The translations under genes were made by a program, and so were the position numbers. Shown here one piece after another: positions 12,239-46,200 of a stretch of 64,000 bases of DNA (its first letter is position 1; every line of letters begins with the position of its first letter). This stretch comes from Branchiostoma floridae (taxonomy: Eukaryota > Chordata > Leptocardii > Amphioxiformes > Branchiostomatidae), in contig NC_049979.1 in the NCBI RefSeq assembly GCF_000003815.2, forward strand, positions 28,018,249 through 28,082,248, written 5' to 3'. The notes beneath the pieces were generated by a model that was not told the origin of the DNA, did no database searches, and worked only from the letters and a program-made list of their open reading frames with translations.

Positions 12239-18822
<6,584 letters not shown>

Positions 18823-21236: not shown

Positions 21237-24200
21237 ATGGCGGACGCAATCGACGATAGACCGCAAACCAAGCGGATTTTCGTCAATCATGTTGACGCAT
21301 ACTCTGGGAAGAACATTTCAAAGGTAGGACAATCTAAAGATATAGGTGCAAGTGACAATGTGAACATAACATGCTGTCGAAAATACTCTAGAGAACGTTC
21401 AACGAGGGTGTTGTGTGTATTGTTTGTGAGCATGTGGGAGGGGGGTATCACTGGTCTGGCAGCGATTCTAATGCTAAAATTTCACATGGGAAAGGTCTAC
21501 TGCCACACCGACCACACTATGATCACCATTGATAGCAGTTTTTATTTGATATTTTCAGTCATATGTCATATATTTTAATGTACAAACAACAGTGTATATC
21601 ATACCAGATGATAGTTCTACATTTGCTAATGGGTCGGTCAAGATCGTTAAGTTCGATTTATGTCACTTCAGAATTCGGATGGATTGTTTTTAAACCTTTG
21701 CTTGAACATTCTTAGCCCCCAAGTCTGAGTCATGTCGGCAGCGTTTAGAATGATAATTCATAGGCATTTGCTAAATATACTTTGCAAAGAGTGAAAGTAG
21801 ATCTTGAATATTTGGTGTGTTTACTAAAGGTTTTTGATTTTGGTTAATTTTCCTTCAACATAAGGTAATGAAACTTTGCATACCTATTCGATAAAAAATA
21901 CCATTATGTGTGCAAGATTTTGTTCCTCTTACAGCAGTTAGTATGGAAATTATTTAACATCCAACAAATATGATATTACACTGTTTCAGTTTCTGTCAGA
22001 CTGTGTGGTTGGATCATCGCTGGAGGAAGGAGAGGAAGGAAGTGAGGGTGAGGAGGACAGGGGCAGTGACTACATCCCTCCCAACAAAGAGGGGACGTAC
22101 ACGATCATCGGCACATTACAGAACCCAGCCAACGCTAAGCCAGACTGGGTGAAAGAGGTTGTACAGGTAAGGAGCCTAACAATGTCTTTTCAAAAATACA
22201 GCAGAATCATAGCCTAGCTACAGTGCAGCAGAATCTTAAGTCTTAAAAGTTAAAAGTAATTAAACCAAGCTGAAAAAGATAGACAAATAGAGTTAGAATT
22301 GTTTACCATGCAGAAAATTTATCTGCCAGGAATTAAGGAGGTATATTGGAGGCCACTATATAAAAAAAATCAGAACATAAAATCAGAACATAAAATCAGA
22401 ACATAAAATCAGAACATAAAATCAGAACATAAAATCAGAACAAAAAAATCAATTTTTTTGTCCTAAAACATAAACTAGCATTTAGCGACTGGTTCTGTAG
22501 CTTTGGATCTGTTTAACTTTAAGATAGCCTGGAGTCCAGCCTTGTTGTGCTTTTAAAAGCAGACCTTTTGGGAGTGACTAAAAGAACAACAAGGCTGGAC
22601 TCAAGACTGTGCTTCTGCAGGTTTTTTGGGGGTAATTTTTGCAGTAAAACTAACAGGAAATTCAGATACCTGTCCATGAAGTTAAGTGTCTTAATCCAAT
22701 ATCCCGTTCTTTCTGTGTACTCTAGTATGCAGCCAAAGAGGAGCTGGCGGATCACCTGATGGAATGTGACATCATCATCTATGACATCACAGAGGACCCT
22801 GACCAGATTGATGAGGCATCATGGGCATGCTCAGGTAAAGGGAGGGAAGTTGTAGGGGGATATTGCTTTTAGCAATAGAGGACTTGAATTACATGAATAG
22901 GGGGATTTTGCTCCTAAACTGTCTATGTCGTCGCACACATCAGTAGATAATAGAACGCATTGAATTTCGTACGAAAACCTGCAAGTATCACGGGGCCCGG
23001 TGTATTGTGGTTGCCCACTTTCTCACATATACTGTCAAACGTTTCTGGATTTTACTATACAATGTGGATTGCAATTCTCCTTCCTCACTTGAGTAAAATA
23101 TGGAGAAAAATGGCTTATTTTCTACTTTATGTTTCCTGTCGTAAATCAGGATGAAGATTGTAAATCTGTTGCCCTGGACACCTGATTTATCAACTGTCGT
23201 ACTGGCTCTAATGTCGTATGTCAGTCCATCCTAGCAGCACATACCTTCATACGATGTAATGTGGACGTTTACAGCCTTCTATAATATGTGAAATCTGTTT
23301 TAGAGAAATATTTATTGGAGTTCATTCCTAAAATTTGTTTTATCAAACCCCTCGCTGTAGCTCTCCATGCTGAGTTGGAACATTTTGACAACCCAAAGAT
23401 GTTCATCCTGCTGTCCTCCGTCATGACCTGGGCCAAGAGTAAACCTCTGGACCCTGTAAGTACAATATTAGCTGACATTATTCCATAAAGTAGTGTCTTT
23501 GACCTTCAAAATGTTTTGAAGATTGTTTCCATATTACTAGTAAATGTTTATGCAATGATGCCATTCTGAATCACCATGTTGATTGCAGAAGTACATTGAG
23601 TAAAATGTCTGACTCACTGTAATCATTATTTTGCAAAATGTTAAGTAGCCTAGTAGATACTTTTGAATATCATTAAGGGGTTTTATCAAATCTGTACAAC
23701 TTTTACCAAATAATAATTACTAATTACTACTACACTGTACATGTCATTGAGTTTTTATGGTACTTTCAGTATGTGCACTCACTGTAGGACTACTAAAGTT
23801 ACTCACTTTAGCATGTATTCAAGTCGCTAAGAGTTGCATTATTTTTAGTTAAGGTAAATTTTGAGACTGAAGAAGTAGTTTTTCTCCTTTAAAAAATCAG
23901 GCTGCACAAGGCAGGTCAATGTAAAATAATGTCTAAATCCCTGCAAGTATCATTGGAACCCTAGACTATAGAAGTAACTGGATATTTCTGTAATGTTTTG
24001 AAAAAAAAATTAGCTTCCAAAACACTAACTTTTTTGATTGTCCTATTTTTTTAAACCTCTGCATATCAAGGAATGGAGAATGCAGGTATCTCATAATGTG
24101 ACTTGTGTATGAGAAGCTAAACATTGTACAACAAAGATGAAAACCTATTCTACAGTGGTTATCTGCCATCTAATTTGTTGTTACAAAATTTACAAATTAT

Positions 24201-27200
24201 AGACTGTTATTTGTGAAAGTAGCAAACTGTTTGTTCAAGTATCATTCGTAAACAAAGTACACAATTCAGCACTTTGGCTCCAATGTACTTGTCTTGACAG
24301 ATCATGATAAACCTTTTTATTTATTTGTTTATTTATGTATTTATTTTCTGTTTTCCATCAGGATGATCCTGAGATTCCCTTCACAGAAGATGACTACAGG
24401 AGGAGGAAGCCCCACCCTAACTTCAAGAACCACATCAGTGCCGAGAAACTGGTCATCAAAAATGGCAAAACAGTAAGGGAGAACGTTTTTACCTTCACCA
24501 AAAATGTTGTGTGTGTCTGTCTGTCTGTGAGCTTTATAACTTTTAAATGTCTGGATGGATTGTCTTCATACATATTTGGGTAGGCCTCAATTTTGGGCCC
24601 TCTGGTGGCTGTCTGTGGTACTGAACTTCTGGTTATGATATCTCATGTTCTGGACAGGCTCCTAATGGTTTGTAGGTAGCTCCTGTGGACAGGAAGAAGA
24701 GAAATTTCAAAAGTCTGGATCCTCTTGCAGATTTCTTTGTTTCAGTTGCAGATTTTGTTTTTTTCTATTCTATCTTAATGATTTTCTCAAATCCAATCAG
24801 CTTTATCATTTATTAATTCCCATGTAGTGCTCAATGTTCTAATACTGGTGGTTCACAGTGTTTGTTGTCTATTACAGAACAAGGGAAAGTTTGTGACCTA
24901 CGTTGTGGCAGCAGGATTGGCCTTTGGGATGGGAGAGAGCATCTTCCACTTCCTCTTTAAGGTAAGTTTAAGTGAGTGAGTAGTGCATGAACGACTGGGT
25001 CTCCAGCTTTACAAATTTTCCATCCCACTTATAGTTTGAAAGCCAATGTTGTTTATTACTGTTGTTGAATCTGTCACTTTGAAGTTTAGCAAGAGTACAT
25101 TATTTGTCAATTTTATTTCCTAAAGTTGTGATTTTTTGGACAAATGGGGTGCATTTTTCTATGTCCCAACAAGCAAATTTATGTCTCAGGATGGAAGGAT
25201 AGGTCCTGGAAACAGCTAATGTGTAATAGACTAATTCCATTGTCCTCATGTAAAAATACGACCTTGGTTTATTTTCTCTTATGCCAAGGTCACATTACAA
25301 AACAAGGGCCAGACTGCGTTTGTAGGAACGAAAAATGAGTGTAAATCAAGAAATATACACAAACTATGCTCATGACATTATAACGTTACATTAAAACTAT
25401 GCTAATGATATGACTAACTGTTTACAATGTTTTCATATCCAGGCTGCATGGGAAGGCAAGTCCCCAGCATTACAGGTGTTTGGAACTGGTACCAACATCG
25501 TGCCTACCATTCACATCAAGGACCTGGCTGGGTATTTGTTTCTTCATATTCTTCCAAGTTCATAATTCAATTCACATTTTCACATAAAAGACGTAGAGTA
25601 GGACCTCCTTTTGACTGCTTGCAATTGATATCGAAAGCAATCAATTTTATGCTTCCTAACTGTTTGTGTTAATGTCATGAAATATAGTTCATTTTTAGAT
25701 ACTGAGTGTACACTGTGCGAAAGGGTGTCATTTCCGGACGTTTCTACGTTTGTATACATCCGGATCGGGACCGTTTCTGGATATATCCGGACAATATCCG
25801 GACGAAATCTGACATGACTCCCCTGCGTTTTCGGATAATTTCAGGAGTCCGGAACGGGACCATTTAATTCCTGCCTCATATCCGGATTTCCAGTAATGGA
25901 ACGTTTTCGGACTCTTTGGAGACAAATCACGTTCCGAATATTTCGTATATATCCGGATAATTTCAGGAGTCCGGAACGGGACCAAATAATTAAGTCTCAT
26001 ATCCGGATTTCTAGTAATGGAACGTTTTCGGACTCTTTGGATACAAATCACGTTCCGAATATTTCGTATAAATCCGGATAATTTCAGGAGTCAAGAATGG
26101 GACCATATAATCATGTCGCATATCCGGATTCAAAGTAATGGAACGTTCTAGGACTCTTTTGAGACAAAAGACATTGGCTAATATTTCATGTTTTCTGATC
26201 ACGTCCGGAACTTTTACGTCCCGGAAAGGTCGCATATGCTGAGCATTTCCGTATTCCAGAATGTAGCATTATCATGTCTCATATCCGGATTCCAAATTAT
26301 GGAACGTTCTCGGACTCTTTGGAGACAAAACACGTTATTTTCTGAGCGCGTTCGCGACTATTACGCCCCGGAAAGGTTGCATAAACTTAAGATATACTGA
26401 AACATCATAGGAACAATACAACACATTATTTCAGAATGTCCAGTAACTTTACGATCATGCTAAATACCTAATATTTAACGTTTCCTGTCCGTTTTAACCC
26501 CGAAAATGCTTTCTCGGTAAGGCTACAGTTTGTGAAAGACTTTCCTGTATAAATCAGATGACACAAGTATCACAACAAATACATTATGTGGAGGAACAGA
26601 TCATGTTAACGTCAAGGGGCAAATCAATATGCATTTGTCTCTTAGTCATACCAAGGAAGTTTTAGCTCACTACAACCTCATTGGTCTTCACAAAAAGTGA
26701 AGCTCGAACGAAGCCAAAGTTAAACAGTTCACTGTCAGATCCAATAATATCAAGCTCAAGTCATAACAAAACTGATCAGTTTAAATGTACAATATCAAAT
26801 GTACAGTATCCGACACAAGTCTAACGTTATATACCATACAATCGATATTCGTAGGATAAAAGTGTCATTACGAAATCAGTACGACAGTCCATTTTCAAGT
26901 CCTTTATAAGTCCGTATCGTGTTGACTGTATAATCATCGTCCGGGTCGCCCTCTTCTGCGTCTTTGTGGTAGTGGACGATCATTGGCGACGGAAGATGCT
27001 CTGGCAAGACCCCGCAATATCGACGGCACGTCTCGAGGACAGTCCGCTCCATTGCACAGTCCAGGCGCTGTCCGTCTTCAAAGTAGAAACCGTTCTGGCA
27101 GGATAACGGCACCGGGCACAGACTGTCGTAAGTGTTACCAGGAAGTAGCCTGGCCTCGGTCGTCGGCTTGGCAGGACAGGCGATTGGGAAACAGGGGCTC

Positions 27201-30200
27201 AGCGGCTGGAATGGAGAAAAAAAACGGCTTGTAACTGCCCCGAACCCATGAACGGTACATGTAAAATTATTCAAACAACAAGGTCATAAAAATCACAGCA
27301 GGACAAGACGGGGACAAAGGCAGGAATCTGGAGCCGGCTATCATCAAAGGGCGCGGGCCACACAGATGGCACAGATAAGGACCCCCAAAGAACGAATGGA
27401 ATTTGAAAATGCACACAATCACATTGGTCCTAGTAAGGAGATTACAGTTCCTCCATGGTTCTATTAAAGATTTAGCCAGCCGAAACAACAGGACAGGAAA
27501 GTTTAGAAGCAACAGTTACGGCACAAAATAATATGAGAATTTAACTAACTATGGAACGGGCAATTTGTAAACAAGCCGGGGATGACACGCGGGGGTTCGA
27601 GCTGAAAGAGAAGTGATCTATCATACAACAATCTTTACAAAAAGATCACACTACTAATTATTAGATACACAAAACACTAGGAAGGGATAACAGACATTGC
27701 TGACAGACATATACGGAACTAAGAACGGTAACTGCTATGTATATACAATCTATGTACTAGAGAGCTACACTACTCACTTCTTGGTCCGGTAGCGGCTAGC
27801 GGTGGACGGCAACTGACCGGTTCAAATCTAGTTTCAAACCTAACTGCTGTCACCAGCTGGTCTACTATTGGTCTAGTCAAGTCATGTGACTTCCTAATAT
27901 AGTCTTGTTACCTAAGGACTCCTCCAGATGGTTCCAAGCAAGTTAGTGCCATCCATCATGCCTGTTTCACAGAAACACATGGCANNNNNNNNNNNNNNNN
28001 NNNNNNNNNNNNNNNNNNNNNNNNNNNNNNNNNNNNNNNNNNNNNNNNNNNNNNNNNNNNNNNNNNNNNNNNNNNNNNNNNNNNNNNNNNNNNNNNNNNN
28101 NNNNNNNNNNNNNNNNNNNNNNNNNNNNNNNNNNNNNNNNNNNNNNNNNNNNNNNNNNNNNNNNNNNNNNNNNNNNNNNNNNNNNNNNNNNNNNNNNNNN
28201 NNNNNNNNNNNNNNNNNNNNNNNNNNNNNNNNNNNNNNNNNNNNNNNNNNNNNNNNNNNNNNNNNNNNNNNNNNNNNNNNNNNNNNNNNNNNNNNNNNNN
28301 NNNNNNNNNNNNNNNNNNNNNNNNNNNNNNNNNNNNNNNNNNNNNNNNNNNNNNNNNNNNNNNNNNNNNNNNNNNNNNNNNNNNNNNNNNNNNNNNNNNN
28401 NNNNNNNNNNNNNNNNNNNNNNNNNNNNNNNNNNNNNNNNNNNNNNNNNNNNNNNNNNTCAAAATATTGTCCGGATATGGACCTATCCCAAACTGCACCG
28501 CTGGTGTGGAGTGTTTGGACTGAACGTTGTTCAAGATATTGTCCGGATATGGACCTATCCCAAACTGCACCGCTGGTGTGGAGTGTTTTGACTGAACTTT
28601 GTTCAAGATATTGTCCGGATATGGACCTATCCCAAACTGCACCGCTGGTGTGGAGTGTTTTGGCTGAACTTTGTTCAAGATATTGTCCGGATATGGACCT
28701 ATCCCAAACTGCACCGCTGGTGTGGAGTGTTTTGACTGAACTTTGTTCAAGATATTGTCCGGATATGGACCTATCCCAAACTGCACCGCTGGGGTGGAGT
28801 GTTTTGAGTGAATGTTGTTCTTGATATTGTCCGGATATGCAAAGAAACAATAATACTTGACTCATAATTGTTACCATCGCAAAGATTGTTTTCTGTGTCA
28901 TTTGATTGTAAATGTCGATGTCAGTATATTTGCACATGTATATGGAAGCTTAAGCTTCAAAGACCAGAAAATTAAAGAGTAAACATACATTGACATCGGG
29001 CATACTCGTTGTAGAATAAAAACACATATACAGAAGCAAAAACGTTAATGACGTGTATTTGACAAGATAGGAAACCTTTTTTTAGGATACCCAACAAAAC
29101 AATCTCAGATTCATGTATGACAAGAAAAGTAATTTGTTAACCAATAAGTTGTCCGAAAACTGATCTCTGGAATGTTTCTGTTTTGGACATCTGTCGTAAA
29201 TGGAACGGAATATGAATTCGGAAGGAGCGAAAATTTCGGCAAAAAATTGCAGTCTTATTTGTTCAGATGCGCAATAAAACAATCACCGATTCACAATTCA
29301 CGTATAGAATACCTTTATCGGTAACGGTCAGAATATGCTAACTCCGAATCTGTCCTAAAACTAATCCATGGAATATCTGTCGCGGATATGTCTCGTAAAT
29401 GCATGGAAAGAAAAGAAAATAGTATGAGTTCGAAAACATGAAACGTCCCTGACACGTATTCGGAAGAACGGGAAATTCTATCCGTCCGGTGCTGAAACAT
29501 TTCATGACTCATGATATTCTGAGACATAATGAATATGAAAATGTTATCTGACAATGGCCCAGAAAAAATAAACTTCATGCTTCGTGCAAACTCCTAATTT
29601 GTCCGGGTATTCCGTATCGAAATATATGGACCTTGGATATGTAAAGAATGTAGAACATATCACGTATTCGGAGGCAAGAAACGTCAATGGCGCGTATCTT
29701 GAAAAACAGGAAAGTCTTATTTGTCCGGATACATAACAAGACAATTCCTGACTCATGATATTTCCAGATATGGGAAATATTGAACATCGTGCCCGGACAC
29801 AGTCCGAATATTTAGCATGTCCAAAAATATGTCAACTCCGACTTTGTCCGGAAATCACACCCTTTCGCACAGTGTGTATTTTCATATTTTTTCCTTACTG
29901 AAAGCCTTCAGCTGATGTATAAGGTTAGAAATAGACATTGATGTTTTGAGTTGCTATGATCATACAGGGTTCTCCAGAACATCTGTGACCAGCGCCCCAA
30001 GACTCGCTACATTGTTGCTGTGGACGACTCACAGAACACCCTGGAAGAAATTGTCCGGGTAAGTTTGCTTTTATCAAAACTTTCAGCTGAATCTAATTTT
30101 TCGCACTCATTTCTGGGCTTTTCCATACAGTTGTGATTTATTTTAGCACTTAAGGCTGAAACCTTCCATGTGGGTTCAACCAAGTCTTGACAAACCCCTT

Positions 30201-33200
30201 TGAGGCCTGCTGTAATTTTTCTAATCCACCTATAACATCTGACTGAAGGGTAGCAGAATACTTGACACATCCTCCAGATTAGTTTTGGACAAAATATATA
30301 GCTTGTATAATAACTCCCAACAATCTCAAGATTTTTAAAAAGTTTCAAGATTTTTTTCAAACAATCTCAAGATTTTTTTCAAACAATCTCAAGATTTTTT
30401 TAAACAATCTCTATTTTATAGATTGTTTAAATAACATCTCTAGATTAATTGGAACAGTCTAAAAAGAATTGATGCAATATTGAAAGTAGTGTTGAAATTT
30501 CATTCAAGATGATGCATTGTTGATAATCTTTTTTAGTCACACTCTCACATCTTAATGCTACAACTGAGTCTGGCAACTAATCTAGCTGTGAAATTATACA
30601 ATCTTGCTGGACTGTTTTACTTTTACTATAACAGTTTGACCCCTTCTTCATTAACCTACCAGGAAATAACTGACCTTTCTTTTCAGGTGCTCTTCTTTCA
30701 ACCTCTAACATTCGCATTGTCTCAGCTTTCCAGCTCTTGGGTATGCTGTACTGGTGCTTTCTGGCTGATGCATGTGTGCATGTGTGTACTGTTTGATACT
30801 GATTTTCTACTTGAAAGCTAACAACAAGAAGTGTCTTAGTCTTTTAACACAATAACCATTCTTACCTTTCTTCCTTTTTCTACATTAAGCTGAGGTGACA
30901 GAGTGATAACTTCAGAGGCAGTTGTTGGTGTTGGACTTGGAGCTTGCTTTGTTTTCAAAAAGCATGTTGAACTGAAAGTTGAATTCATGAAAATCGTGAG
31001 GGTCTTTCAGGACAAAATTTGCAGCAGTTCTTGAGGAAAAATTTAACTCTTTTTTTTCATTCACATATCAAGAATTTGTCTCAGCTTTAAAAAAAAATGT
31101 TAACGCCAGCTCACTTTTATCCATGGGGTAACCTGTATCTGTCATTTTTAGAAATGTGTTTTTAGGGATATCAAGTCGAAACTGGGTGGTTTCAAACTGC
31201 AATATTTTCGAAATACTGCAGTTTGAAACCACATCTGTTGACTTGCCACTTGTCATCCCTAAAGGCCTCATTCTTAAAAACAATTGATATAGGTTACCCG
31301 CTGCGCAGATAAATGTGAACTGTCTTTCTCAAACTATCTAAATCTTTTGGTCATTTTCAATTGATAAACACCTTCAAGAGCACTCCAAAATGAGATGTGA
31401 ACAAAGCAAGTTGCCAAGTGAAACCCATAATTTATGGTGACATGACACTCACAGGCATTGTGTTTCCACAGGCCATTGCATCTAACCTGGGCAACGGGAA
31501 GGTCAAGAAACTCTCCAAGGAAGACTATGACTTCCTGAAAGTGTGTGGTACACCTAAGTGCATGAGTGTGTGCGGTTTAAGGACATCTGAATATTAATTT
31601 GGTGGAAGATTTCTGTTGTTGACAGTGAGCTATCACCATTTAGTGTATTACAGATCTTTTGCCTCATTCATAATGATCTATTTTGATATACAAACAATGG
31701 TGGAAAGATCAGTGGTAAGAGCGCAAAGTATACAGTCAATTTTCCATAATATTCTAAGTCTGGTGCATTATTTATTGCGCAAATGTAGCTCAAGACGACA
31801 AGAGAGAAAAAATCTGCGAAATTTGGAATTTTTACCAAATGAGTGACTGAAGAGATTTAACGATACTTGTCTACCTTATGAAATTGGTACTGCAGCTGTC
31901 ATGAGTACCCCCCTCCCTTCTCCTGTAAAGAAATTGAACTACAATGTATCACCCATATACACAATTGCAGAAGATCCGTGATATCACATGGTATCAGCTT
32001 GCTGTTCCATCATGACAATGTGTGTCGCAGACAATAGAATAACTCAGGTGTACAGGTAACTCAATGATGGTTACCACCTGAGGTATTGATGTCTGCCTGA
32101 ATGTTGTTTACTTTCCTTGTTCTTGATGAGTTTTTCTAACCTTTTGCAGCATATCAGCTCTCACCTGGGTGATGGTAAGGTGAAGCATGTCACCAAGGAG
32201 GAGGCACTGCTTAGCAAGGATCTGGCTGTGAGTAGTCTTCCCTATATTTCTTAGGTTTTGAATAAAGATCATCTGATCTCCGTTCCTGCCAAAATTGGGC
32301 ATTTTTCATATTTGCCATCTTTAGACATCCTTTTTGTGGATGGCTTCAGCTGCAATCTAATGTTGCTAAAAAAAATCTTCTGGACAAAGTGCTAAAGTTT
32401 TGCAAACATGGAATAAAAGACCATATTGTATTTTTAAAAAGCACTTAAATTGCTACTCATTATGATACATTTACATGTACATGTATGGGAGCCATGACTT
32501 TAAACTGAATCAGATTTTCCAGATTGGAGTGTTTTACCGGTTTATCTGTCCAATGAGTTATATATAATATTTGATCTTGATGAGAATCTATACGTAAACT
32601 AGTTCAAGAAATGTCAAGTGGCAGTTAAAATAATTTCAGTTTTTAGTATTTAACAATAATTTTTTGTTTTTTTGTTGTCATAGCAAGCAGATTTTGACCA
32701 GCTTCTGGTGAATCTGCGCATGGAGGCCATGTTTGTGAAGGAGAGCATGCGGATCATGTGGATCGCAGAGACGGGCATGTGTGAAAACATCGACACTGTC
32801 ATCAGGGAGTACAAGCAGTCCCGCGGGCTACTGGTGAGTAAGTGAGTGAGTGAGTGAGTGAGTGAGTGAGTGAGTTAGTGAGTGTGTGAATGAGAGATAG
32901 AAAGATAGAGCAAGATAAAGAGTTGAATGCAATTACTGCATGTGTTTGGATGGTTTCAGCACCAAGGACAGATATACTTTTGTTTTTGTAGGTACGACCA
33001 CCAAGGTCAGGGGATGAAAACATTTTTTAGATTACTTGATAAGGAGAACTGACGACCGGCGAAAATCAACTTCTGACAGTGAGACTGAAAGTGTTCGAGG
33101 TTGAATGTGTCTTGATTGCAGAAGTGTCTGATAATTGACCAAGCAAATACTAAGCGAATAAAATAGTTAGTTACTGAATGTTGATCTAGATCACAGATCC

Positions 33201-36200
33201 TCATTCTCACAGCCTACTGTTATGTAAGCTATTGGTATGTTTTAAAATGTTTCTGTTGGTTCACAGCCTATGCGTGCATGTATCATGGGCCCTCCTGCAG
33301 TTGGAAAGACAACAATAGCCAAGAAGCTGTGTGAACACTACAAACTGCACCACATCAAGATCAAGGATGTCATTGATGAGGCTGTGGAGAACTTGGTGGG
33401 TCTTTGTCTATCATTATGCTTTGACTTACCAGTAGTACTGAACCTATCCAATGTAACTTGTTGGATAGGATTTATTAACATCTTAAAGAATGGCTACTTA
33501 TTCTAAGATACATGGACTGATTTCTTTCCATCATTAGAGATGCTAGTTTGAAACCTTTTGCAAGAACTGATGGAGTTTTTCTAAGAGGCAGCAGCTGTCT
33601 GATAAAAAGTCTTTTAGGACATTTGAAGTCCCTTCCAAAGGACAGGTGCAGCCCCAACCGAGATGCCCTTCCCAGGATTGAACGAGGGTTTACCTGTTGA
33701 AACCAGGAGCGCAAGTGTGAGGCTGCTACCATTTGAGCTACAGGGACATCCCCAGTGTCATGTAATACTAACACATAATGTGTGACTATAATATCACTAT
33801 ATGCAAATGTAGTACCACTACATAACACCACCTAACATCTGATTACCATCCATGTAGAAACGTCTATCTGCAAGGGCTGAGGGAGAGGAGGAGGAAGAGG
33901 ATGATGGGAAGGCCCAAGAAGCGCAAGAATTGCTCGATGCCATCCAGGAGTCACGAGAAAACAACAATGGTATGTAGAAGCACAATTGTCCGATGACCAT
34001 AGCACACTCCAGTCCGAGACAACTGTTCTTGACCCCCTAACTGTGGGGACAAAGGAGTTCCTATTTCACTGCTCAAAATGCATTTCTCTGCATACATGAA
34101 TACACTGGTTCAGGAAACATTTAAGTTTACGTTTACATATTGCTATCCTCTCCTGTTAAATGTTATTTGGGGTAATGTTCATTTTTCACTAAGTAGTTTT
34201 GCATACTCATTAATCTTCTTGCTCTCCATGCTGCTACTAGAAATAGATGAATTATAAGATATGCTTTTGATGATCTTTCTGACTGTATGAAACCATTTAT
34301 GCTTGTGGNNNNNNNNNNNNNNNNNNNNNNNNNNNNNNNNNNNNNNNNNNNNNNNNNNNNNNNNNNNNNNNNNNNNNNNNNNNNNNNNNNNNNNNNNNNN
34401 NNNNNNNNNNNNNNNNNNNNNNNNNNNNNNNNNNNNNNNNNNNNNNNNNNNNNNNNNNNNNNNNNNNNNNNNNNNNNNNNNNNNNNNNNNNNNNNNNNNN
34501 NNNNNNNNNNNNNNNNNNNNNNNNNNNNNNNNNNNNNNNNNNNNNNNNNNNNNNNNNNNNNNNNNNNNNNNNNNNNNNNNNNNNNNNNNNNNNNNNNNNN
34601 NNNNNNNNNNNNNNNNNNNNNNNNNNNNNNNNNNNNNNNNNNNNNNNNNNNNNNNNNNNNNNNNNNNNNNNNNNNNNNNNNNNNNNNNNNNNNNNNNNNN
34701 NNNNNNNNNNNNNNNNNNNNNNNNNNNNNNNNNNNNNNNNNNNNNNNNNNNNNNNNNNNNNNNNNNNNNNNNNNNNNNNNNNNNNNNNNNNNNNNNNNNN
34801 NNNNNNNNNNNNNNNNNNNNNNNNNNNNNNNNNNNNNNNNNNNNNNNNNNNNNNNNNNNNNNNNNNNNNNNNNNNNNNNNNNNNNNNNNNNNNNNNNNNN
34901 NNNNNNNNNNNNNNNNNNNNNNNNNNNNNNNNNNNNNNNNNNNNNNNNNNNNNNNNNNNNNNNNNNNNNNNNNNNNNNNNNNNNNNNNNNNNNNNNNNNN
35001 NNNNNNNNNNNNNNNNNNNNNNNNNNNNNNNNNNNNNNNNNNNNNNNNNNNNNNNNNNNNNNNNNNNNNNNNNNNNNNNNNNNNNNNNNNNNNNNNNNNN
35101 NNNNNNNNNNNNNNNNNNNNNNNNNNNNNNNNNNNNNNNNNNNNNNNNNNNNNNNNNNNNNNNNNNNNNNNNNNNNNNNNNNNNNNNNNNNNNNNNNNNN
35201 NNNNNNNNNNNNNNNNNNNNNNNNNNNNNNNNNNNNNNNNNNNNNNNNNNNNNNNNNNNNNNNNNNNNNNNNNNNNNNNNNNNNNNNNNNNNNNNNNNNN
35301 NNATCAAGTAAGTTTGAAGTATTTGTTCTATTTGCCAGACCGGATCGAGGACCAGTACATCATCCGGTTTTACCGTGAGAAGCTGCGTTCCATGCCGTGC
35401 CAGAACCAGGGCTTCATTTTGGATGGATTCCCAAAGACTTATGAGCAGACCAAAGAACTCTTTGCAGGTAAGGAAATGTTGAGACACGTGTGAGGTATAG
35501 ACACACCTGTTAAACTGCGGACTGATTGTTACAGCAGGTCTTCCTATGCTTTGTCGCTGGCTATACTGGTACTTTGAATTTGCAAAGCTTCTTTGGAACA
35601 ACAATCACTAAAAGGAACACTTTTTTCGACCAATCAGAGAAACTTGCTGCAGTAAATGTGAACTGTGCAGTACCATGTTCATTTTTTATTCACTTTCAAA
35701 TGAGTTTCATATTGTGTTCAGCACCAAGGACAAGTTTATTTGCCTGTGTGTGGATGGTGTTCAAACTAGGGATATACATAAATGTTTGCCTGTGTGGATG
35801 GTATTTAGCACCAGAGACTGATGTGTTTGCCTGTGTGTGGATGGTGTTCAGCACCAAGGACTGATGTATCATCCTGTACGTGAACATTGTTTAGCACCAG
35901 AGACCTCTGTATTTAGCTGTGTGTGAATGTTGTTTGGCATAAGGGACAGCCTGGAAAGTGTTCAGCACCATGGACAGGTCTGTTGCCTGTATTTGGAAGC
36001 TATGTTTACCTGTGTGTGGATGGTGTTCAGCACCAAGGACAGGTGTGTTTAACCATGTGTGTATGGGGTTCAGCACCATGGACAGGTGTGTTTAACCATG
36101 TGTGTATGGGGTTCAGCACCAAGGATAGGTGAGTTCACCTGTGTGTGGACGGTGTTCAGCACCAAGGACAGGTGTGTTTACCTGTGTGTGGAGTGGATGG

Positions 36201-39200
36201 TGTTCAGCACCATGGACATGTAAGTTTACCAGTGTGTTTGTGGTGTTCAGCAGCAGGGACAGGTCTGATTGCCCATGTGTAGATGGTGTTCAGCACCAAG
36301 GACAGGTCATATACTAAATGAACTCTCAATATTCTTGCGAGTTCAATAGTCTAGTCCAAATTCAACAGAGCAAATTCAAGATCACAACAGTTTCTCAAAA
36401 TGTGAAATTCTATTGCATTCCCATGAAAGACAAGTAAGAAGAAATGAAGACACACCTCCAGAAAGCTTTATTTATAGACTAAAGTTACTAGTCAAGCAAT
36501 ATTTCTAAATGGTATTTTCTAACAAAGTTTCTTTCTATTGTTCTCTTCCACACTGTCATGACAGAAGGCGGTTGTAAGTAGACGAATTTGACGTTTTATC
36601 ATTGAACTGAACAGACACCAACTGTGACATATATTACTCCCTGTTTAACTTAAGTCAAAAGTTGCATCTCAGAATTAAGCAGTGTACAAGACTGGTGGAA
36701 ATCACTGAACATCTTAGAATTGGTGTTTGAATGGTCAAGGATTGGCATGAATGAGGTTTGGACGGTTCTGTGAAATGGGTTCTAAAATGGGCTCTTTTTA
36801 TGCAAGTCAGTTCCAAAGTTCCAGTATATTATAAGTCTGTTCTGTAGTTTTAGTACATTGTTTTTTGGTAGTTCCTGTACAATATTGAAGTCTGTTCTGT
36901 AGTTCTAGTACATTATGTATTCTGTTTGGTAGTTCCAGTACATTATGCAAGTCTGTTCTCACCGTTATTCCAGTACATCTTGCAAGTCTGTTCCATAGTT
37001 CCAGTACATCTATTGTTTGGTAGTTCCAGTACATTATGCAAGTCTGTTCCTTAGTTCCAGTACATTATACAAGTCTGTTCTTCAGTTCTAGTACATTATG
37101 CATTCTGTTTGGTAGTTCCAGTACATATGCAAGTCTGTTCCATAGTTCCAGCGCATTATGCTAGTCTGTTCCTTAGTTCAAGTACATTATGGTAGTCCGC
37201 TTTGAAGTTCAAGTATAATTTTGGCACATCTGTTTGGCACATTAGCTACATGTAGTTCTAGTACATTATGCCAAGTCTTTTTACTAGTTCCATAAAGAAA
37301 GATTTGAAATAAATATGCGGGTGTGTACCATATGATGGACAGATGTTTTACATAATGTATTGTTTCTAATCTCTGTTTTTGTCCCTAGTGGATGATGAAG
37401 AGGAAGGAGAAGATGAAGGAGGAAAGGTTCCCAGTTACCACAAGGGGACCATGCCAGGTAGGACAGTCCACATTGCACATGATATGTATGATGAAATTTG
37501 AATATATCTGAAAAAAATGTTGTCAACAGATTAGGGTTATTTCAACATTTGACACTGCCGTTTTGAAATTAAGTATGGATGAATGAAAGAATGATGTATT
37601 TGTAAAACTTAGCAGCCTATAGGCAAAATTGTGTAATACATTATGAGGGAATCTGATTTAATTTTTGGTCCCTATATTTTTCTAACCAAGTTCAACAAGA
37701 GCCTGTTTTTGTCATCATTAAAGATGGCTCATACTGTACATGTAGTCAAATAAAACATTTCAGAATTGTAGCAGACTTTATCTTTTTTGTTTTTACTGGA
37801 ACTTAATTTCTTGTATGGATTGAATGTTCTGTGTATGTAAGTTTGTACAAAGACTCATCATAGTAATGTCGTGTTGGTGTCTACAGAGGTCGTCATCTCC
37901 CTGGACGCGCCAGACGATTTCCTGAAGGTCCGCGTAATGAACCTCCCCGAGGGGCAGGTGGCCGGTACACACAACACGGAGGAGGGTCTGACCCGGCGCC
38001 TCACCGAGTTCCGCAACATCAACCGGGAAGATGAGACCATCCTGAACTACTTTGATGAACTGGAGATTCATCCAGACCACATAGGTACTTGTATTACAGT
38101 ATTGGTAAGAGTTTGCTCTGCCAAAGCTATAGTCTGCTAATGTAGGGGTACTAATTCTTGTGCATTTTAAGGTATAAATGTATGTTGATACAGCATTAAA
38201 CAGGAAGAGAAAAAGTCACGGATAGGAGTTACTGCAAGCAACTAGAAATGGTTTTGAAAATGGTCAGACATTTGAGATAGTGTCCACCATCTTTCATCAG
38301 TTACCTGGATGTCTAACCTTCATCTACATCACAGACCATGCATTGTTCTGTCTAGAAGAGCTGTTATTTCATCCCATGTTATTTCATCCCATGTTATTTC
38401 ATCCCATGTTATTTCATCCCATGTTATTTCATCCCATGTTATTTCATCCCATCACATATTGGATCTGTTCACACGTTACAACTGAAGTTTCTGTGAACCT
38501 ATAACTCTCAAGTAGATCTTCACACAAACTCTTTGTGCATTCAATGATGAAGGTTTTCGAGTAGGCCATGTACATGTGTCTTGCTACCATATTTAGAGCA
38601 AAGAGCACATTGTTTGATATATAAAACTGTTACAATAAACAGTGGATGTCTTTTCTCTGTTTCCAGATGTGTCAAAGGATGTGTCTGATGACATGAAGCA
38701 GACTGTGGATAAGCTCATCAAGACCATGGGGGAGCCCAGGAACTATGGTTGGTTGGACTACTTGTTGTAGTTCTGTCTGAGCCTTTGGATTTGTCTACAC
38801 GTTTAAAGTCCTCTTCTTCATAACTTGTTCAACATTATTTACTGTACTTTTCTATGGACCAAAAGGTTGTATTTTGAGAATATTTCTTGACATTACTGTG
38901 GATTGAAGAGAAGCCTAGGAAAGTTATGTTTGGAATTCGAACATACCCAAATGTCCAGTATTTGTCCAGAAATGTCAAGTTCTTTTTCCAAGTACATAAC
39001 ATCAATGGGGTGTGTCAGGACATTCTATCCCATCACCTTTAGGGTCTGGACCACAAAAACACCATCATGCCATGCCAATGCCAGACATATCCCCATATGC
39101 TATATGTTGGATGTAGCATTACTGATTTGTATGACTCATCTCCAGGCCCAACACCTGAGGAGTTAGAGGAGATGGAGAGGAAGGCCACAGAGGAGCGGCT

Positions 39201-40636
39201 GAAGCGGGAGGCTCAAGAGCAGGAAGAGCGAGAGAGAAGAGAGGCAGAGGAGGCGGCAGAGAGGGCTCGTCGGCAGGAGGAATGGGTAAAACGTCTTTCC
39301 TTCAGCATCCATAGTTATGCTTCTGTCATTATTGCACTGGTGCCCATAGGGGGTGTTGCCCGACTTGTTCTTAAATTTGTCCTCATTGAGTGTCCACAAA
39401 TTTGTCCTCATAGAGTGCTGGATACCTTGGAGATGCCTCTCGTTGTTTACAGGTTTATAGGTTACGGCATCTAATTGTTGCTGGGTCCTAGGTTGATTTT
39501 GACTGTTTGTTAGAAAATGTGGGGCCCAACTGTGCCCGAAATTAGCCCAGCAGACGCTAGATGTCCCATGGGCAACATAGGGTTCAAGCCCAAAGTTGAA
39601 AAAAACAAATTAGTTTAACTGAGAAGTCCCAAATATAGTATTTTGGTTAGAAAAACTGTCCTTGTTGACCTTCTACATACATTATATGCAGCTAAAACTG
39701 ACACAATTATTGCGACAAATGTAGAATCTTTGCAAAAGTTGCCATGCTATTGTTGAGAAGTAAAAGTCCTACCATCCTTGCCATGCTATTGTTGAGAAGT
39801 AAAAGTCCTACCATCCTTGTGACTGGTTCTATCCACCCGCACACTTTGTAGGCTGAGCGTCTGGAGGAAGTGCGTCGTCAGGAGCAGGAAGTGCTGGAAG
39901 CCCAGTCCACGCCCCTCAGGAACTACCTGATGAAACACGTCATGCCGACCCTGACGCAGGGCCTGATCGAGGCCTGCAAGGTCCGCCCGGATGACCCTGT
40001 AGACTTCATGGTAAGAGCAGCCGATCTGTATAGACTGGTATCCAAACCTATTATGACTGTCTAGTCTAATCGTCCACTCAGACGGACCAAACACTCAAAG
40101 GGCCCAGACCTATTTATGTGAGAGTATGAAGATATGTGGCAGATATGATAGGTTTAGATACCAGGTTTAGATATCTAGTCATGTGAGCACCAAGATGAAA
40201 ACTGCTCTGATTGATCTCCTCCCCTCCCTACCCTTTCCAATGCACAATGTGCATTAATTTTGCACATGTACATGTACATGTGTAGCTGCAGTTGTACTTT
40301 ACTGACCTAATGTGATATAATTGCATTGCATGCTATTCTGATAGTGAAATAGTTTCTTAATGTACCAAATGTCATTGTTGTTTTTAATTAGAGTACATTT
40401 ACAGTAGTCAATTGTTTCAATTTCATTGCAACCTGAAAGGCATGTTTGAATGACCTGAGTGTGTCTGACCTGGTTGTAAACAAGAAAGTGAAAGGTAAAA
40501 GTTTCCAATGAATGGTGTACGTTAGAAAGTAAGTTATCAGTTGGATGTAAATGAACCACTGTCACCATTAATCATTGCCACCTCCCTTTGTTTTCAGGCC
40601 GAGTATCTTTTCAAGAGCAATCCGCAGGTCGACTAG
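21237..40636 (+). CDS. AK7: Adenylate kinase 7
   Basis: Complete gene of about 708 residues (human AK7 is 723). Exons: 21237-21323, 21990-22166, 22726-22834, 23361-23455, 24362-24472, 24878-24961, 25443-25531, 29968-30058, 31472-31540 and/or 32150-32227, 32684-32833, 33267-33395, 33858-33969, 35339-35467, 37389-37457, 37887-38084, 38667-38747, 39146-39285, 39852-40010, 40598-40636. Phases join at every junction. Residues 1-350 form the AK7-specific N-terminal Rossmann-like part. The P-loop GPPAVGKT lies at about 365-372, [12 protein letters not shown] follows in the kinase core, and an acidic insert lies between. A Glu/Arg-rich coiled coil (598-665) and a Dpy-30 motif (667-705) end the protein. 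AK7 transfers phosphate between adenine nucleotides and works in motile cilia; that role is family knowledge. The start has a good Kozak context. Poly(A) signals AATAAA are at 41097 and 41114. Confidence 0.95.
22370..22443. repeat. 13-16-bp tandem repeat (AAAATCAGAACAT)
   Basis: Five near-identical units in an AK7 intron. Not coding. Confidence 0.85.
22530..22604. mobile_element. Short inverted repeat GAGTCCAGCCTTGTTGT
   Basis: Arms of 17 bp (GAGTCCAGCCTTGTTGT at 22532, inverse ACAACAAGGCTGGACTC at 22586-22602) around a loop that itself pairs (CTTTTAAAAG). In an AK7 intron; hairpin element of unknown family. Confidence 0.6.
26876..27205 (-). CDS. Cysteine-rich terminal exon carried inside the transposon
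   Basis: On the minus strand a strong acceptor (polypyrimidine TTTTTTTTCTCCATTCCAG) precedes 109 codons ending at the stop 26876-26878. The peptide has seven cysteines ([24 protein letters not shown]), then an acidic tail ([19 protein letters not shown]) ending GLENGLSY. The exon is GC-rich relative to its surroundings, as coding exons here are. The upstream exon was not found; it may be in the gap or outside. The product family is not recognised. It could be a captured host exon, a gene nested in the AK7 intron, or part of the element's own protein. Confidence 0.5.
   Translation of the reverse strand, partial: PLSPCFPIACPAKPTTEARLLPGNTYDSLCPVPLSCQNGFYFEDGQRLDCAMERTVLETCRRYCGVLPEHLPSPMIVHYHKDAEEGDPDDDYTVNTIRTYKGLENGLSY
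27985..28458. other. Assembly gap (474 N)
   Basis: Run of N inside the transposon, directly left of the 72-bp tandem array, which probably caused it. Open frames crossing it are artefacts. Confidence 1.
28459..28850. repeat. 72-bp tandem repeat next to the gap
   Basis: At least five units of exactly 72 bp, each with GTCCGGATATGGACCTATCC and CCAAACTGCACCGCTGG. Period read from the starts at 28471, 28543, 28615, 28687, 28759 and a last partial unit at 28831. 72 is a multiple of 3, so all frames stay open; no protein is implied. Confidence 0.95.
30303..30412. repeat. CAATCTCAAGATTTTT tandem repeat
   Basis: Four to five imperfect units in an AK7 intron; not coding. Confidence 0.7.
31107..31320. 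mobile_element. Inverted-repeat element, GTTCACCTTTATCC family, copy 1
   Basis: Left end GCTCACTTTTATCCATGGGG then TAACC; right end GGTTACC...CAGATAAATGTGAAC, its inverse. The centre holds a hairpin GTTTCAAACTGCAATATTTT / ACTGCAGTTTGAAAC. Further copies are at 48167-48381 and 51160-51277. Confidence 0.75.
31472..31540 (+). CDS. AK7: AK7 exon 9a (duplicate / alternative exon)
   Basis: 23 codons, phase 0 at both sides, acceptor TTTCCACAG, donor AAA|GTGTGT. The peptide [20 protein letters not shown] matches the next exon 9b ([20 protein letters not shown]) at about half the positions. It is three codons shorter at its end. Either exon, or both, can be spliced without a frameshift. Confidence 0.65.
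32150..32227 (+). CDS. AK7: AK7 exon 9b (constitutive-looking copy)
   Basis: 26 codons with acceptor CTTTTGCAG and donor GTGAGT. Its end, LLSKDLA, is the better match to the human AK7 segment (LTKDLT), so this is probably the ancestral copy. Confidence 0.8.
32832..32892. repeat. (GTGA)n microsatellite at an AK7 donor site
   Basis: The GTGAGT donor of exon 32684-32833 is the first unit of a GTGA array of about 14 units, so there are many overlapping GT dinucleotides just downstream of the exon. Confidence 0.9.
33267..33395 (+). CDS. AK7: AK7 exon with the kinase P-loop
   Basis: 43 codons starting [20 protein letters not shown]: the Walker A motif GPPAVGKT and the following helix, then [15 protein letters not shown], the start of the NMP-binding part. 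Phase 0 on both sides. Confidence 0.9.
33595..33775 (-). mobile_element. tRNA-derived SINE, minus orientation
   Basis: On the minus strand a tRNA-like head has an A box (TAGCTCAAATGGTAGCAGCC) and a B box-like CGTTCAATCC, followed by GGGAAGGGCATCTCGG, a core like the one at 60160. It lies in an AK7 intron. Not a functional tRNA gene: the acceptor stem does not pair and a SINE core follows. Confidence 0.55.
34309..35302. other. Assembly gap (994 N)
   Basis: Run of N inside the AK7 intron between exons 33858-33969 and 35339-35467. The phases of those two exons (1 and 1) join directly and the protein aligns with human AK7 without a missing piece, so no exon need be lost here. Confidence 1.
35716..36307. 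repeat. About 40-bp minisatellite (GTGTTCAGCACCAAGGACAG)
   Basis: More than ten imperfect units with GTGTGGATGGTGTTCAGCAC and CAAGGACAGGT in an AK7 intron. Also read as short open frames on both strands; not coding. Confidence 0.9.
36813..37290. repeat. About 30-bp minisatellite (AGTTCCAGTACATTATGCAA)
   Basis: About fifteen imperfect units with TTCCAGTACATTATGCAAGT and CTGTTC in the same AK7 intron as the preceding array. Confidence 0.9.
38363..38452. repeat. 15-bp tandem repeat (GTTATTTCATCCCAT), 6 copies
   Basis: Six virtually perfect units in an AK7 intron; recent expansion. Confidence 0.95.
39852..40636 (+). CDS. AK7: AK7 last two exons: Dpy-30 motif
   Basis: Exons 39852-40010 and 40598-40636 encode the end of the coiled coil ([18 protein letters not shown]) and the Dpy-30 dimerisation/docking motif ([32 protein letters not shown]). 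The stop is at 40634-40636. In ciliary proteins this motif binds AKAP-type amphipathic helices. Confidence 0.9.
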
Positions 40637-41432: not shown

Positions 41433-42589
41433 GAAGGAATTTCCCTTGGTTACAATATTCACCACACTAGCCTGTTCTCAATCAAAGGAATTTCAATTAG
41501 TCAGAGTGTGACTTCCATCACATAAGTTGGTAACTCATTGAGAGAATGGTAGAAGTATGAAGTTGGCAGGAGTTATAAGCGAGTCTCTTAGGGACCTAAA
41601 CTTCACATCCTGTCAGTGGGCTGGGGTGGTGGTAAATATGCTTGATAGGTTTAAAGAAAGCAGCTATATCAAAAGCTATAGGTGTGAGCGGCTGTACAGT
41701 GTGATATAGTCAGCTGTTGCTGCACTGTGTGCTTGGGATTAGCTGGTGCGTTACGCCGAAGGGAGATTATACAGATGCTATGCGGAAAATTTAATTTAAC
41801 TAAAACTAAAAAGGAATATTTGCAGGGACTTAAAAAAGTAGTGAATAGGGAATGGAGTAATAAAAAAAATGGATTTTTCTCAAAGGGCTGAATTGCCAAA
41901 TTTTTATTTTACAACAATGACTAAAATGGAAGTGCCATGTTGAAAGTAATTCTATTTACAGTCCTGAATATCAAAAATTCATAATCATGACAAATACAGG
42001 ACATTCATGTACAAGTGACATCTGCAACAAGTTAATACACAGACTAAATATGTCAACTAAGTACTTTCAGTATTATTACTTATTGCACATTACGATTCCA
42101 ACCATGATAGACAGACAATTCAATGAGAAGTTATAAGTCAAATGATCTGTTCCATAAGTTTGAAATTAACAATGTCCAAACTCTATGGGACCGACACAAT
42201 GTCATGATGGTTGGCTTGACATTGACTTGACATGTATCAACTGGCCTGACACAAATTTCCTCACATTCTTAAATGCAAGTACCTTACAATATTGCATTGA
42301 AAAAGTATGCATTGCACAGTGTCAGGGGAATGTACTATTACAGATATTGTTACCATACTTAGGTTACAATGTCCATTTTCTCATCATCTAGGATCGTGGA
42401 CAACAATCGTTGATATTCAACATTTGGGAATGTTTACGTAGACACTGTCCTTTCTCTTCAACATTTTTAAAACTTCATAATGGAAGGAAAGAATTCTGTC
42501 CTAACTACCACTCCCACAGATTTCATCTCTACCTCTCCCAAACTCCCCACCCCAGTAGGTTCCATAATGTTGCTCCCTCCCCTACACTC

Positions 42590-43030
42590 CATTCACCCCA
42601 ACTCCACTGCTCCCCACTCACACTCCAAAGGTCCCCTAACTCCATTGCTCCCCTCACACTCCATTGTTCCCCCCTCAGACTCCATTGCTCCCCCCTCACA
42701 CTCCATTGCTCCCCCCTCACACTCTATTGTTCCCCCCTCACACTCCATTGCTCTCCATAATCCCTTGCCCCCCTCACACTCTATTGCTCCCCCTCACACT
42801 CCATTGTTCCCCCCTCACACTCCATTGCTCCCCCTCACACTCTATTGCTCCCCCCTCACACTCTATTGCTCCCCCCCTCACACTCCATTGTTCCCCCCTC
42901 AGACTCCATTGCTCCCCCCTCACACTCTATTGCTCCCCCCTCACACTCCAATATTGCTCCCCCCCTCACACTCCATTGCTCCCCCCTCAAAGTTCCATTG
43001 CTCCCACACACTCTACTGTTCCCTCCCTTA
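42590..43030. repeat. About 22-24-bp minisatellite (CTCCATTGCTCCCCCCTCACA)
   Basis: About 18 imperfect units; the plus strand is almost free of G and the minus strand reads repeated GGGGGGAGCAATGGAGTG. It is downstream of the SLC35 stop on the transcribed minus strand, so the likely RNA is G-rich. All plus-strand frames are open; these are by-products of composition. Confidence 0.9.
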
Positions 43031-43234
43031 CATTTCATGGCTCCATTCCTTCTAACCAGAGATCTAGACAGTGTCACCCTCACTCCCTATCCCCAGTGCC
43101 CCTCTCTTCTGTCCCCCAGACTCCAAACCTACTTCCCCCTTAACATCACTCCTTCCTCCTCAGGCTCTCTACTGTCTGTGGAAGTGAATTCTGGTTAAAA
43201 CTCAAAGTGTAATGCTTCAGACTAACTATCAAAA

Positions 43235-46200
43235 CTACACCCCAACTCCATTTTGTTTGCTTGCAAGTGTCGCGTCAGAGTCTTTTGTTTGTCTACTTGG
43301 AGCTGGGTTGACAACAGGGTTCAGAGAATAGAGAAAGGTGGCCAGACAGACAATGACAATGGCAATGAAAGTAAAGACGTCAACTGGAATGCCAAAGATG
43401 TACCAGCACAAGACTGCAGTAAACATGAGTTCTAGTGCGCTGGCGAAAGTCTTGAGTATAGAGTTGAGACTCTTGAGGAACAGACTAGTGATGATGCCTA
43501 TGGCTGTTTGGTTGAGGGTGACGAGAATGACGGTTGGTTGAAGTATGGAGTTGATGCTCTCTGTAGTGAAAGCAGACAGCAGGTCGCCAGTATAGGCCAG
43601 TACACACATGTTGCAGATGATAGAGTCCAGGTACATGAAGACATTCTGCATCATGAGCGGCACGTGGCTGGTCTTCTCTCCCTTCAAAAGGAACTCCGTA
43701 TACACACCAGCAAAGCACGAGCAGAACACCTGAAACAGGAGAACTCCACAATTCAACATTTTAAGACTACTAGAAATTGAATCATGATTGTATGGTATTA
43801 GGTACATGTACATACCAAATATCCATATATGATCTGAACAAATCAACTTATAGAATAAGCTTGTAATGACTGCAACATGACCGGTGAAATCACTACAAAA
43901 AAAGGTAAACGTAGACCCATATAATATGAGGCCATAGGGACAGTGTAGGGCACAGCAGGTGGAGGCAGAGCCCAACCCTCTCCCTTCACTACCTTGTCCC
44001 TCCCCAACCAAAGTCAGGTACACATTTTATAACTGGCTTAACAAATATCTGAGCACACAGAGTATGGTAAACCAAACACATCTTCTTAAGTTTTCAGATT
44101 TTTTTTCAATCTACGGCATATACTTACTCAATTTACAGCTGCTTTGTATGATTTGCAGTATAATGGTCGAAAACTTTTTTTTTTAAATGGCTAGAAATTA
44201 ATGCATAGGAATGTCATCCATATACTATGGTCAAATCAACATGGCCTTTTCAACTGAAGATGCAAGTAAGAAATGGGAGAGCTGTTACCTGGAGAAGGAT
44301 GTGTAACAGGTTGGCGTTCAGGTGCAGACTGAGGGACTGGCCGCCAAACGACACCACGTCTCTCATGTGGGTGTCGTGCTTGATCTGTTTAACTACACAG
44401 CCAATAGTCAGCAGCAGCAGTGACAGCCACTGCATCCTACTCAGTGTCTTCTTGAACAGAACCTAAAGGAAAACAAGAAATTAATGCGACAGTAATTTGT
44501 AATGCATACTGAGTTTACCTTACTAATAGGTTAAATGTTGAAGATATTGCACTGTCAAGCTACCTTGGTATCTTTATCTTAAACTATTTCACCTCTGTGT
44601 ATGGAGGCATTGTTTTTGGCTTGTCTATATCTTTCCTTCTCTGTGTTTTGGCAGCTACTTTATTTCTAATGTATATGCTATGGTATATATACATGTACAT
44701 ATCACCACTGAGTGAAAGGATAAAAAAACTGTTACAAAATGTATGGGATGACAGGACACAAAGTTGAGTTGGTAGAATTAGACACTAATATATCAACACT
44801 CTCTAACAGCTGACAGACATTCCAGGTCATGAGGTCAATCGGAGAGGTTACTAATTCATGAGGAGGTGCCTGTATTATTTTTGTTCTGTTTGACTGATTG
44901 TGCTTTTTCAGTATTTCATACCTAGTCAACCTAATAGAGTGGCAGGAAGTGGTTAATGGACACATGTAGTTTTCATCAAAACCTTATTTGCAAATAAAGT
45001 AATCAACTAAAATTAAACATGAAATAAAACCCTAAGATTTTAGGTAGTTAAGAGATCTTTAAAGTCTTACTGCTGTACTGCTATCATCTGCAAATGATTT
45101 ATCAAATCAAGCCTAACCATGTTGGACTAGGGTAATATACCGGTACTAAGTTGCAAATGCAAACTTATGACGAAAGCAACAGAATGTTCCCACTGACCTG
45201 GAAGACGATCCCAGTGGTGACGACCCTGAACTGCAGCAGCAGGTAGTAGGTGGTGGGGTCGTACACGGCAAGGTTCACAAACTGGAGGTTGTTGTACAGA
45301 CAGTACAGCGATGCCGGCACCAAGTACAGCAGTAATACTGTGAAGGTACAGTAAGTGAGTAACATTAGGAATGTACGAAACTCAGTGGATTCAAATTTTT
45401 AGATAGTAGATTTACCAAGTATAGAAATGAGCGAGTATTGCAATTACGGTAGCATGGAGCAATGACCAAAGACATGGTAGGGAATAAGCGCCCTCTGGCA
45501 AGACTTGGCCTGTCTGCAGGTCAGACAATTCAGAAGGGATAGAAGGAAAGCTGAAATCAGGCACTATAACATGCAACCGATAGGTTGCATGGCAAAAAAC
45601 CTTTACTTATTATGAGCATGAAAGGTTGATTGTGATGGTGAGGGGACAATGTCATGGTCAAACAGTATTAAGAAATCTTACTTTATTGAATCCTTACCTT
45701 TCTTGTCCTTAGCAATGACTCTTAGCACTTCCTGAAACGAGTTGCTGTCAAAAGAGGAAAGACTTAGACTTAGGCATAAACGAGTTATCTGCATTTCTCA
45801 TGATAGTCAAGAAGATGCGTGGTGTGTCGGTATGAACAGAGCTGGCAAAAGTTGCTTTCAAACTGTGACACACATACATGCACAAACACTGACATACACA
45901 CAAGCATGCACATACAAATGATGCACAAACACACACACATGCATACAAACACACACACAGTAACACACAAACATTATGCACAAACACACATACTGTACAA
46001 TCATGTACATTTATTTCACATACACATGTGCACACACACATTTGCACACATGCATGCGAACATACACACAGACACATTCAAAGCTCATTATATAATGTGT
46101 GCAATTCCAATTTTTGTGCAAATGAATTTTGAAATATGTTAATTAATAAATGGTAGGGAATCAGTGTTTTTGATTACATGATACTCTATTTGTAATACCC

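Follow-up and report, generated by a model that had tools for sequence, protein, structure and literature searches.

Introduction

Tandem exon duplication is a well-described kind of event. In human, 236 substitutions between tandem duplicated exons have been reported, most of them ancient, and the same report states that exons are often duplicated but that the duplicates are not commonly spliced in a mutually exclusive way (PMC9741552). An atlas of human mutually exclusive exons (MXEs) took as candidates those exons that share the reading frame, differ in length by up to 20 aa and are similar to each other; it predicted 1,722 novel exons in human introns, and for 654 of these one or more junction reads confirmed that they are MXEs (PMC5740500). 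The outcome of a duplication can also be the reverse, as in the vertebrate COE/EBF genes, where both copies of the duplicated helix exon (H2d-H2a) were included in all cDNAs that the authors of that study analysed (PMC2394523).

For the ciliary adenylate kinase AK7, two versions or copies in one structure are described at the protein level. The head of radial spoke 3 in mammalian cilia contains two copies of AK7; each is attached through its DPY30 domain, and their partners differ, being EFCAB5 or AK9 (PMC11779644). In Tetrahymena, Ak7A and Ak7B are both assigned to radial spoke 3, and Ak7A is possibly located elsewhere too (PMC12399478).

Here we describe two neighbouring copies of exon 9, named 9a and 9b, in the AK7 gene of the amphioxus Branchiostoma floridae. 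The window, which means the whole stretch of DNA that was analysed, is 64,000 nucleotides long. Like the human tandem exon and MXE events, 9a and 9b are adjacent homologous internal exons with equal phase and similar length. Like H2d-H2a of COE/EBF, 9a is a tandem duplicate of a short exon with symmetrical phase 0, lying adjacent and in frame. They differ from the atlas in that 91 of its 122 annotated MXEs are not divisible by three (PMC5740500), whereas both exons here are, and their exclusivity is putative. The comparison with Tetrahymena goes both ways, since two AK7 versions per organism would be a likeness, but Ak7A and Ak7B are named as two adenylate kinases and not as exon variants.

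We found no earlier report of an AK7 exon duplication in the accessible literature on AK7, on tandem or exclusive exons and on amphioxus, a body from which subscription papers are mostly absent. The main text of PMC5740500 does not mention AK7, and the passages on AK7 in two human cancer prognosis studies (PMC8298452, PMC8442315) describe no such duplication.

Results

The AK7 gene and the position of its exon 9 copies

The exons of AK7 were located by tblastn with a human AK7 sequence as the query, and their limits were then refined by splice sites (Table 1). The resulting open reading frame is complete from ATG to TAG, with 19 coding exons when 9a is excluded, and encodes 708 aa with exon 9b. 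The first 357 aa of the predicted protein matched the AK7 chains of PDB entries 9d2f (E 5e-130) and 9fqr (E 1e-125), while the remainder was covered exon by exon in the tblastn comparison with the human sequence. In the form with 9b, Pfam detected an ADK domain at residues 363-561 (1.4e-13) and a Dpy-30 motif at residues 664-705 (9.5e-19). Judged by its full-length similarity, its ADK domain and its C-terminal DPY30 motif, the predicted product is an AK7 protein. Assembly gaps (N) are located at 27985-28458 in intron 7 and at 34309-35302 in intron 12. The protein is continuous across the former gap when compared with 9d2f and 9fqr, and across the latter when compared with human AK7, which suggests that neither gap hides a part of AK7.

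Table 1. Positions of the AK7 gene, its exon 9 copies and neighbouring features in the window
Feature	Position	Strand	Remarks
AK7 gene	21237..40636	+	tblastn, splice-refined model, PDB chain matches, Pfam
Exon 8 (upstream neighbour)	29968..30058	+	ends in phase 0, ...TLEEIVR
Foldback (MITE-like) element, intron 8	~31107..31320	+	approximate limits; ends ~150 nt before 9a
Exon 9a, 69 nt, 23 aa	31472..31540	+	duplicate of 9b, probable alternative exon
Intron between the copies, 609 nt	31541..32149	+	
Exon 9b, 78 nt, 26 aa	32150..32227	+	canonical copy; co-linear with 9d2f and 9fqr over its full length
Exon 10 (downstream neighbour)	32684..32833	+	starts in phase 0

The positions and peptides that an earlier note on this DNA had given for 9a and 9b were exact, and the neighbouring exons end and start as listed in Table 1. 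Exon 9a is bounded by an acceptor (ccacag/GCC) and a donor (AAA/gtgtgt) and contains no stop codon; exon 9b is bounded by ttgcag/CAT and GCT/gtgagt. Both exons are in phase 0-0 and both lengths are multiples of three, so that, as had been claimed, either can be used without a frameshift.

The donor of 9a had also been described as the weaker one. Judged by the intronic hexamer only, GTGTGT is indeed further than GTGAGT from the usual donor consensus, but the order was reversed when the sites were scored with a crude matrix built from AK7's own sites (19 scored sites each). In this matrix the donor of 9a scored 4.1 (rank 15 of 19), above those of exons 5 (3.5), 7 (3.2), 15 (3.0) and 9b, the last of which was the lowest of all with 0.65. 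The acceptor of 9b was the best of 19 (12.4), and that of 9a ranked 11th (5.8). Both scores of 9a are within the range of AK7's other exons; they are ordinary values, as AK7 contains 154 GTs (of 1205) and 103 AGs (of 1112) that score at least as high. The supposed weakness of the 9a donor is not distinctive.

In the protein, exon 9b encodes residues 282-307. The Pfam kinase match begins at residue 363, after a further 55 residues that are encoded by exon 10 and the first part of exon 11. The earlier description of the segment as a linker directly preceding the kinase domain does not agree with this distance; in the predicted protein it is a part of the N-terminal portion, which we take to be Rossmann-like, and not a kinase-adjacent linker. 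The statement that human AK7 has one such segment can be upheld as far as chains 9d2f and 9fqr go, which are presumably mammalian and were the only ones compared: each has one segment equivalent to 9b, and a second is absent from both.

Homology between exons 9a and 9b

The peptides of 9a and 9b are identical at 10 of 17 positions in a local alignment and at 11 of 23 without gaps. Their BLOSUM62 score of 54 was reached by none of 20000 shuffles of 9a (maximum 42). When the 2091 nt that lead from exon 8 to 9b were shuffled 3000 times with dinucleotides preserved, the best match to 9b again stayed below this score (mean 24.1, maximum 45, Gumbel P ~2e-6). We compared each of the 19 exons with its two flanking introns, with ~2 kb of sequence beyond the gene taken as the outer flank of the first and last exons, and found that 37 of the 38 comparisons scored 14-33, with exon 9b against its upstream intron (54) as the sole outlier. 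Exon 9a by itself also resembles the two solved AK7 chains, with local scores of 45 and 40. It is 3 residues shorter than 9b, and its last 5 residues are unmatched except for the final K.

At the DNA level, blastn detected a match of 44 nt with 75% identity that lies within the exons, and the identity over all 69 nt is 0.55. This is below the lowest identity (57%) found in a DNA-level survey of tandem exons (PMC9013439), and such pairs are thus easily missed at that level. The 300-nt flanks that follow 9a and 9b are slightly similar (15 of 200 shuffles as high), so these flanks may be related; for the upstream flanks 182 of 200 shuffles scored as high.

Being adjacent, homologous, equal in phase and similar in length (69 vs 78 nt), 9a and 9b are a tandem duplicated exon pair, and the tandem duplication with equal phase proposed earlier for AK7 is borne out by the local score of 54 between two phase 0-0 exons lying side by side. 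We found no third copy of exon 9; the best match in intron 10 scored 19, and when all of the window was searched the next-best match scored 36. An exon 6-like tblastn match at 24583-24615 was considered as a second tandem duplicate and rejected as an apparent intronic chance match without context.

Predicted splicing of the two copies

All four arrangements of the two exons are in frame, giving proteins of 708 aa (9b), 705 aa (9a), 731 aa (both) and 682 aa (neither). Because both exons are multiples of three, double inclusion and double skipping preserve the frame as well, and neither a frameshift nor NMD enforces a choice between the copies. The frameshift upon joint inclusion that marks some mutually exclusive exons is therefore absent here. 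That type is not obligatory, since exons whose length is not a multiple of three occur in 377 of 629 human clusters and are absent from the others (PMC5740500). Steric exclusion is not expected either: the atlas uses a limit of 50 nt (PMC5740500) for the distance from donor to branch point, and the intron between the copies has 609 nt. The YTNAY branch-point motif occurs three times within the final 61 nt of this intron (32107, 32123 and 32136) and once within its first 80 nt (31594).

We then considered RNA structure, with the foldback element masked and without gaps. The best pairings among the three introns were equalled by 84, 81 and 79 of 200 shuffles, and the score of the best shared docking site was reached by 169 of 200. 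Control of exclusivity by docking and selector pairing was set aside, as no pairing exceeded the shuffles in this ungapped search. None of the three enforcing mechanisms tested (frameshift, crowding of donor and branch point, ungapped RNA pairing) is thus present. Eight regulatory motifs were searched in the four 150-nt flanks, and none exceeded chance; the lowest background fraction (0.057) belonged to a single TGCATG in the flank that follows 9a, which is a lead only. TGTGTG is found at the 9a donor itself.

Splice-site competition together with regulators has been proposed for 484 clusters of the atlas (PMC5740500). Mutual exclusivity of 9a and 9b, raised earlier as a possibility, is plausible; with 654 of 1,722 predictions validated in the atlas, the prior for exclusive use of 9a is not high. 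With the best acceptor of the gene but its lowest-scoring donor, 9b may be the default, and 9a may be taken when activated.

The most serious competing explanation is joint inclusion of 9a and 9b, either in every transcript or with 9a as a cassette exon, in which case the protein carries two consecutive copies in a 731 aa form. We regard it as unlikely, although several observations speak for it. The symmetrical phase 0 of both exons keeps such a transcript in frame, we found no pairing or other feature that forbids joining 9a to 9b, and the COE/EBF genes of vertebrates, with both helix exon copies included, are a precedent (PMC2394523). The bit scores of the corresponding fragments against 9d2f/9fqr were 306/307 with 9b, 297/300 with both exons, 292/291 with 9a and 263/264 with neither. 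The double form scores above the 9a form, and these values therefore do not favour substitution over tandem inclusion. In the phmmer alignment of the double form, DFLK of 9a followed by 9b was placed opposite the DFVK-CIS... junction in 9fqr. The end of 9a can thus take the place of the last residues of exon 8; this 7-residue resemblance is weak (shuffle P 0.04-0.24). On the other side, both PDB chains hold one segment only, the double form loses 6.5-8.9 bits relative to 9b alone with its alignment split into two stretches, and 23 extra residues in a conserved part would be likely to disturb the fold.

Coding constraint on exon 9a

A somewhat less probable alternative is that the duplicate 9a is dead, or nearly so, and no longer spliced in. 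Its off-consensus donor, its shorter length and its unmatched 3' end would fit such a relic, and the following four comparisons bear on it.

The substitutions between 9a and 9b over 23 codons gave a pN of 0.36 and a pS of 0.76, and the codon bootstrap P for pN being at least pS was 0.011. Silent divergence was estimated at 1.43 for the first 18 codons and was saturated when all 23 were used; these estimates rest on only 12-15 silent sites.

In a neutral-drift simulation of 9a, a run passed when at least 11 of 23 identities were kept and no stop arose. At a divergence of 1.4 the probability of passing was 0.001-0.006, and at 2.0 none of 4000 runs passed in each of two settings. At lower divergence neutral copies passed more often, in 3-8% of runs at 1.0 and in 35-49% at 0.6, which leaves room for drift if the true divergence is ~0.6-1.0.

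The base composition of 9a is that of a coding exon at third positions. GC3 is 16 of 23 (0.70) compared with an intron GC of 0.38 (P 0.002) and with 0.65 for AK7 exons overall. Its overall GC is unremarkable, since 12% of intron windows are at least as high, and at first codon positions its GC (GC1, 0.48) is lower than that of the gene (0.60). Codon log-odds, trained on AK7 with 9b and without 9a, were 11.3 for 9a; the mean of 3843 overlapping open intron windows was -10.8, and 13 of them scored as high.

Compared with the solved chains over 18 columns, 9a and 9b each have 8 identities to 9d2f, and they have 7 and 8, respectively, to 9fqr; between themselves they share 10 of 18. This near-equal distance indicates that the two exons evolved at similar rates over these columns, which argues against a relic.

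These results indicate that both copies keep coding constraint, although a neutral 9a is possible at a divergence of 1.0 or less. The excess of silent change, the drift simulation, the GC3 and codon bias, and the chain distances favour a 9a kept by selection. With no stop and both splice sites present, 9a is probably a used exon and not a relic.

It is very unlikely that 9a serves as an alternative terminal exon. An in-frame stop codon at 31595-31597 past the 9a donor would end the protein 18 residues later upon read-through and produce an AK7 without its kinase, but the 609-nt intron contains no AATAAA or ATTAAA and the donor dinucleotide is present. Least probable of all is a chance resemblance of an intronic open frame: unrelated matches of 51 (exon 13) and 47 (exon 1) did arise when the 19 exon peptides were compared with both strands of the whole window, so that the significance of the 9a/9b match rests on adjacency, strand and splice phase, and 9a is not among the plus-strand matches listed by tblastn of human AK7 at E up to 100, but its position, phase and splice sites, the intron-restricted controls and its independent resemblance to the solved chains all stand against chance.

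A model for the use of the two copies

The explanation that we consider reasonably likely is that exon 9 was duplicated long ago and that both copies were retained as coding sequence, with substitution of one for the other as their most likely use. The duplication is placed far back because silent changes between 9a and 9b are close to saturation. In this model most transcripts would take 9b, which has the best acceptor, and some cells would take 9a instead. The two AK7 proteins would then differ in a piece of 23-26 residues at positions 282-307, with the adenylate kinase domain and the DPY30 motif unchanged. The choice would have to depend on splice-site competition together with trans-acting factors, supported by selection against proteins with neither or both copies.

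If 9a is used, AK7, an axonemal ATP-recycling enzyme, gains an alternative form, and a radial-spoke enzyme becomes a case of tandem-exon substitution. This would also provide a handle on whether the cilia of different tissues, or positions within one spoke, differ in their form of AK7. One gene giving two forms by exon choice would parallel the spoke 3 settings that hold two AK7 copies. A more specific idea, to which we give little credence, is that the two variants serve two non-equivalent places, for example the AK7 copies of the radial spoke 3 head, or sperm as opposed to epithelial cilia; were it true, the exon pair would be the exon-level counterpart of two AK7 genes. Should both exons be included instead, the locus would resemble the COE case, in which a duplicated exon turned permanent.

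Other features of the window

The stretch 31100-31330, which contains the foldback element, folds at -94.1 kcal/mol (z -11.2). The element, with ends near AGCTCAC.../...GTGAACT, has relatives at 48189-48358 and 51163-51256 that are ~70% identical. Because of these relatives elsewhere in the window, the intron 8 hairpin was set aside as a splicing device, and its location near 9a is probably incidental.

Coding-like codons were also observed at 26879-27420 in AK7 intron 7, a region that adjoins a 135-aa minus-strand ORF and may be a nested gene fragment; this ORF had no Pfam match at E 0.01. Among the 13 intron windows that matched the codon log-odds of 9a, the 12 listed start at 27289-27317 in the same intron.

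The minus-strand ORFs 50466-50789 and 56801-57541 share closely similar stretches (KIKIT..QIFTINETIHQL) and so probably belong to a repeated element; the longer of them had no Pfam match at E 0.01. Another minus-strand ORF at 3491-5545 has a CUB match (2.6e-5) and many tandem GPSQNGSSAVPTT-like units, and a tandem repeat array at 42400-43195 is open in several frames (CSPLTLH and PPSHSIA units). The AK7 gene is flanked on one side by a Ras-family GTPase exon at 13508-13771 (minus strand, Pfam Ras 6.7e-13) and on the other by a nucleotide-sugar transporter at 43238-44026 (minus strand, 1.6e-16).
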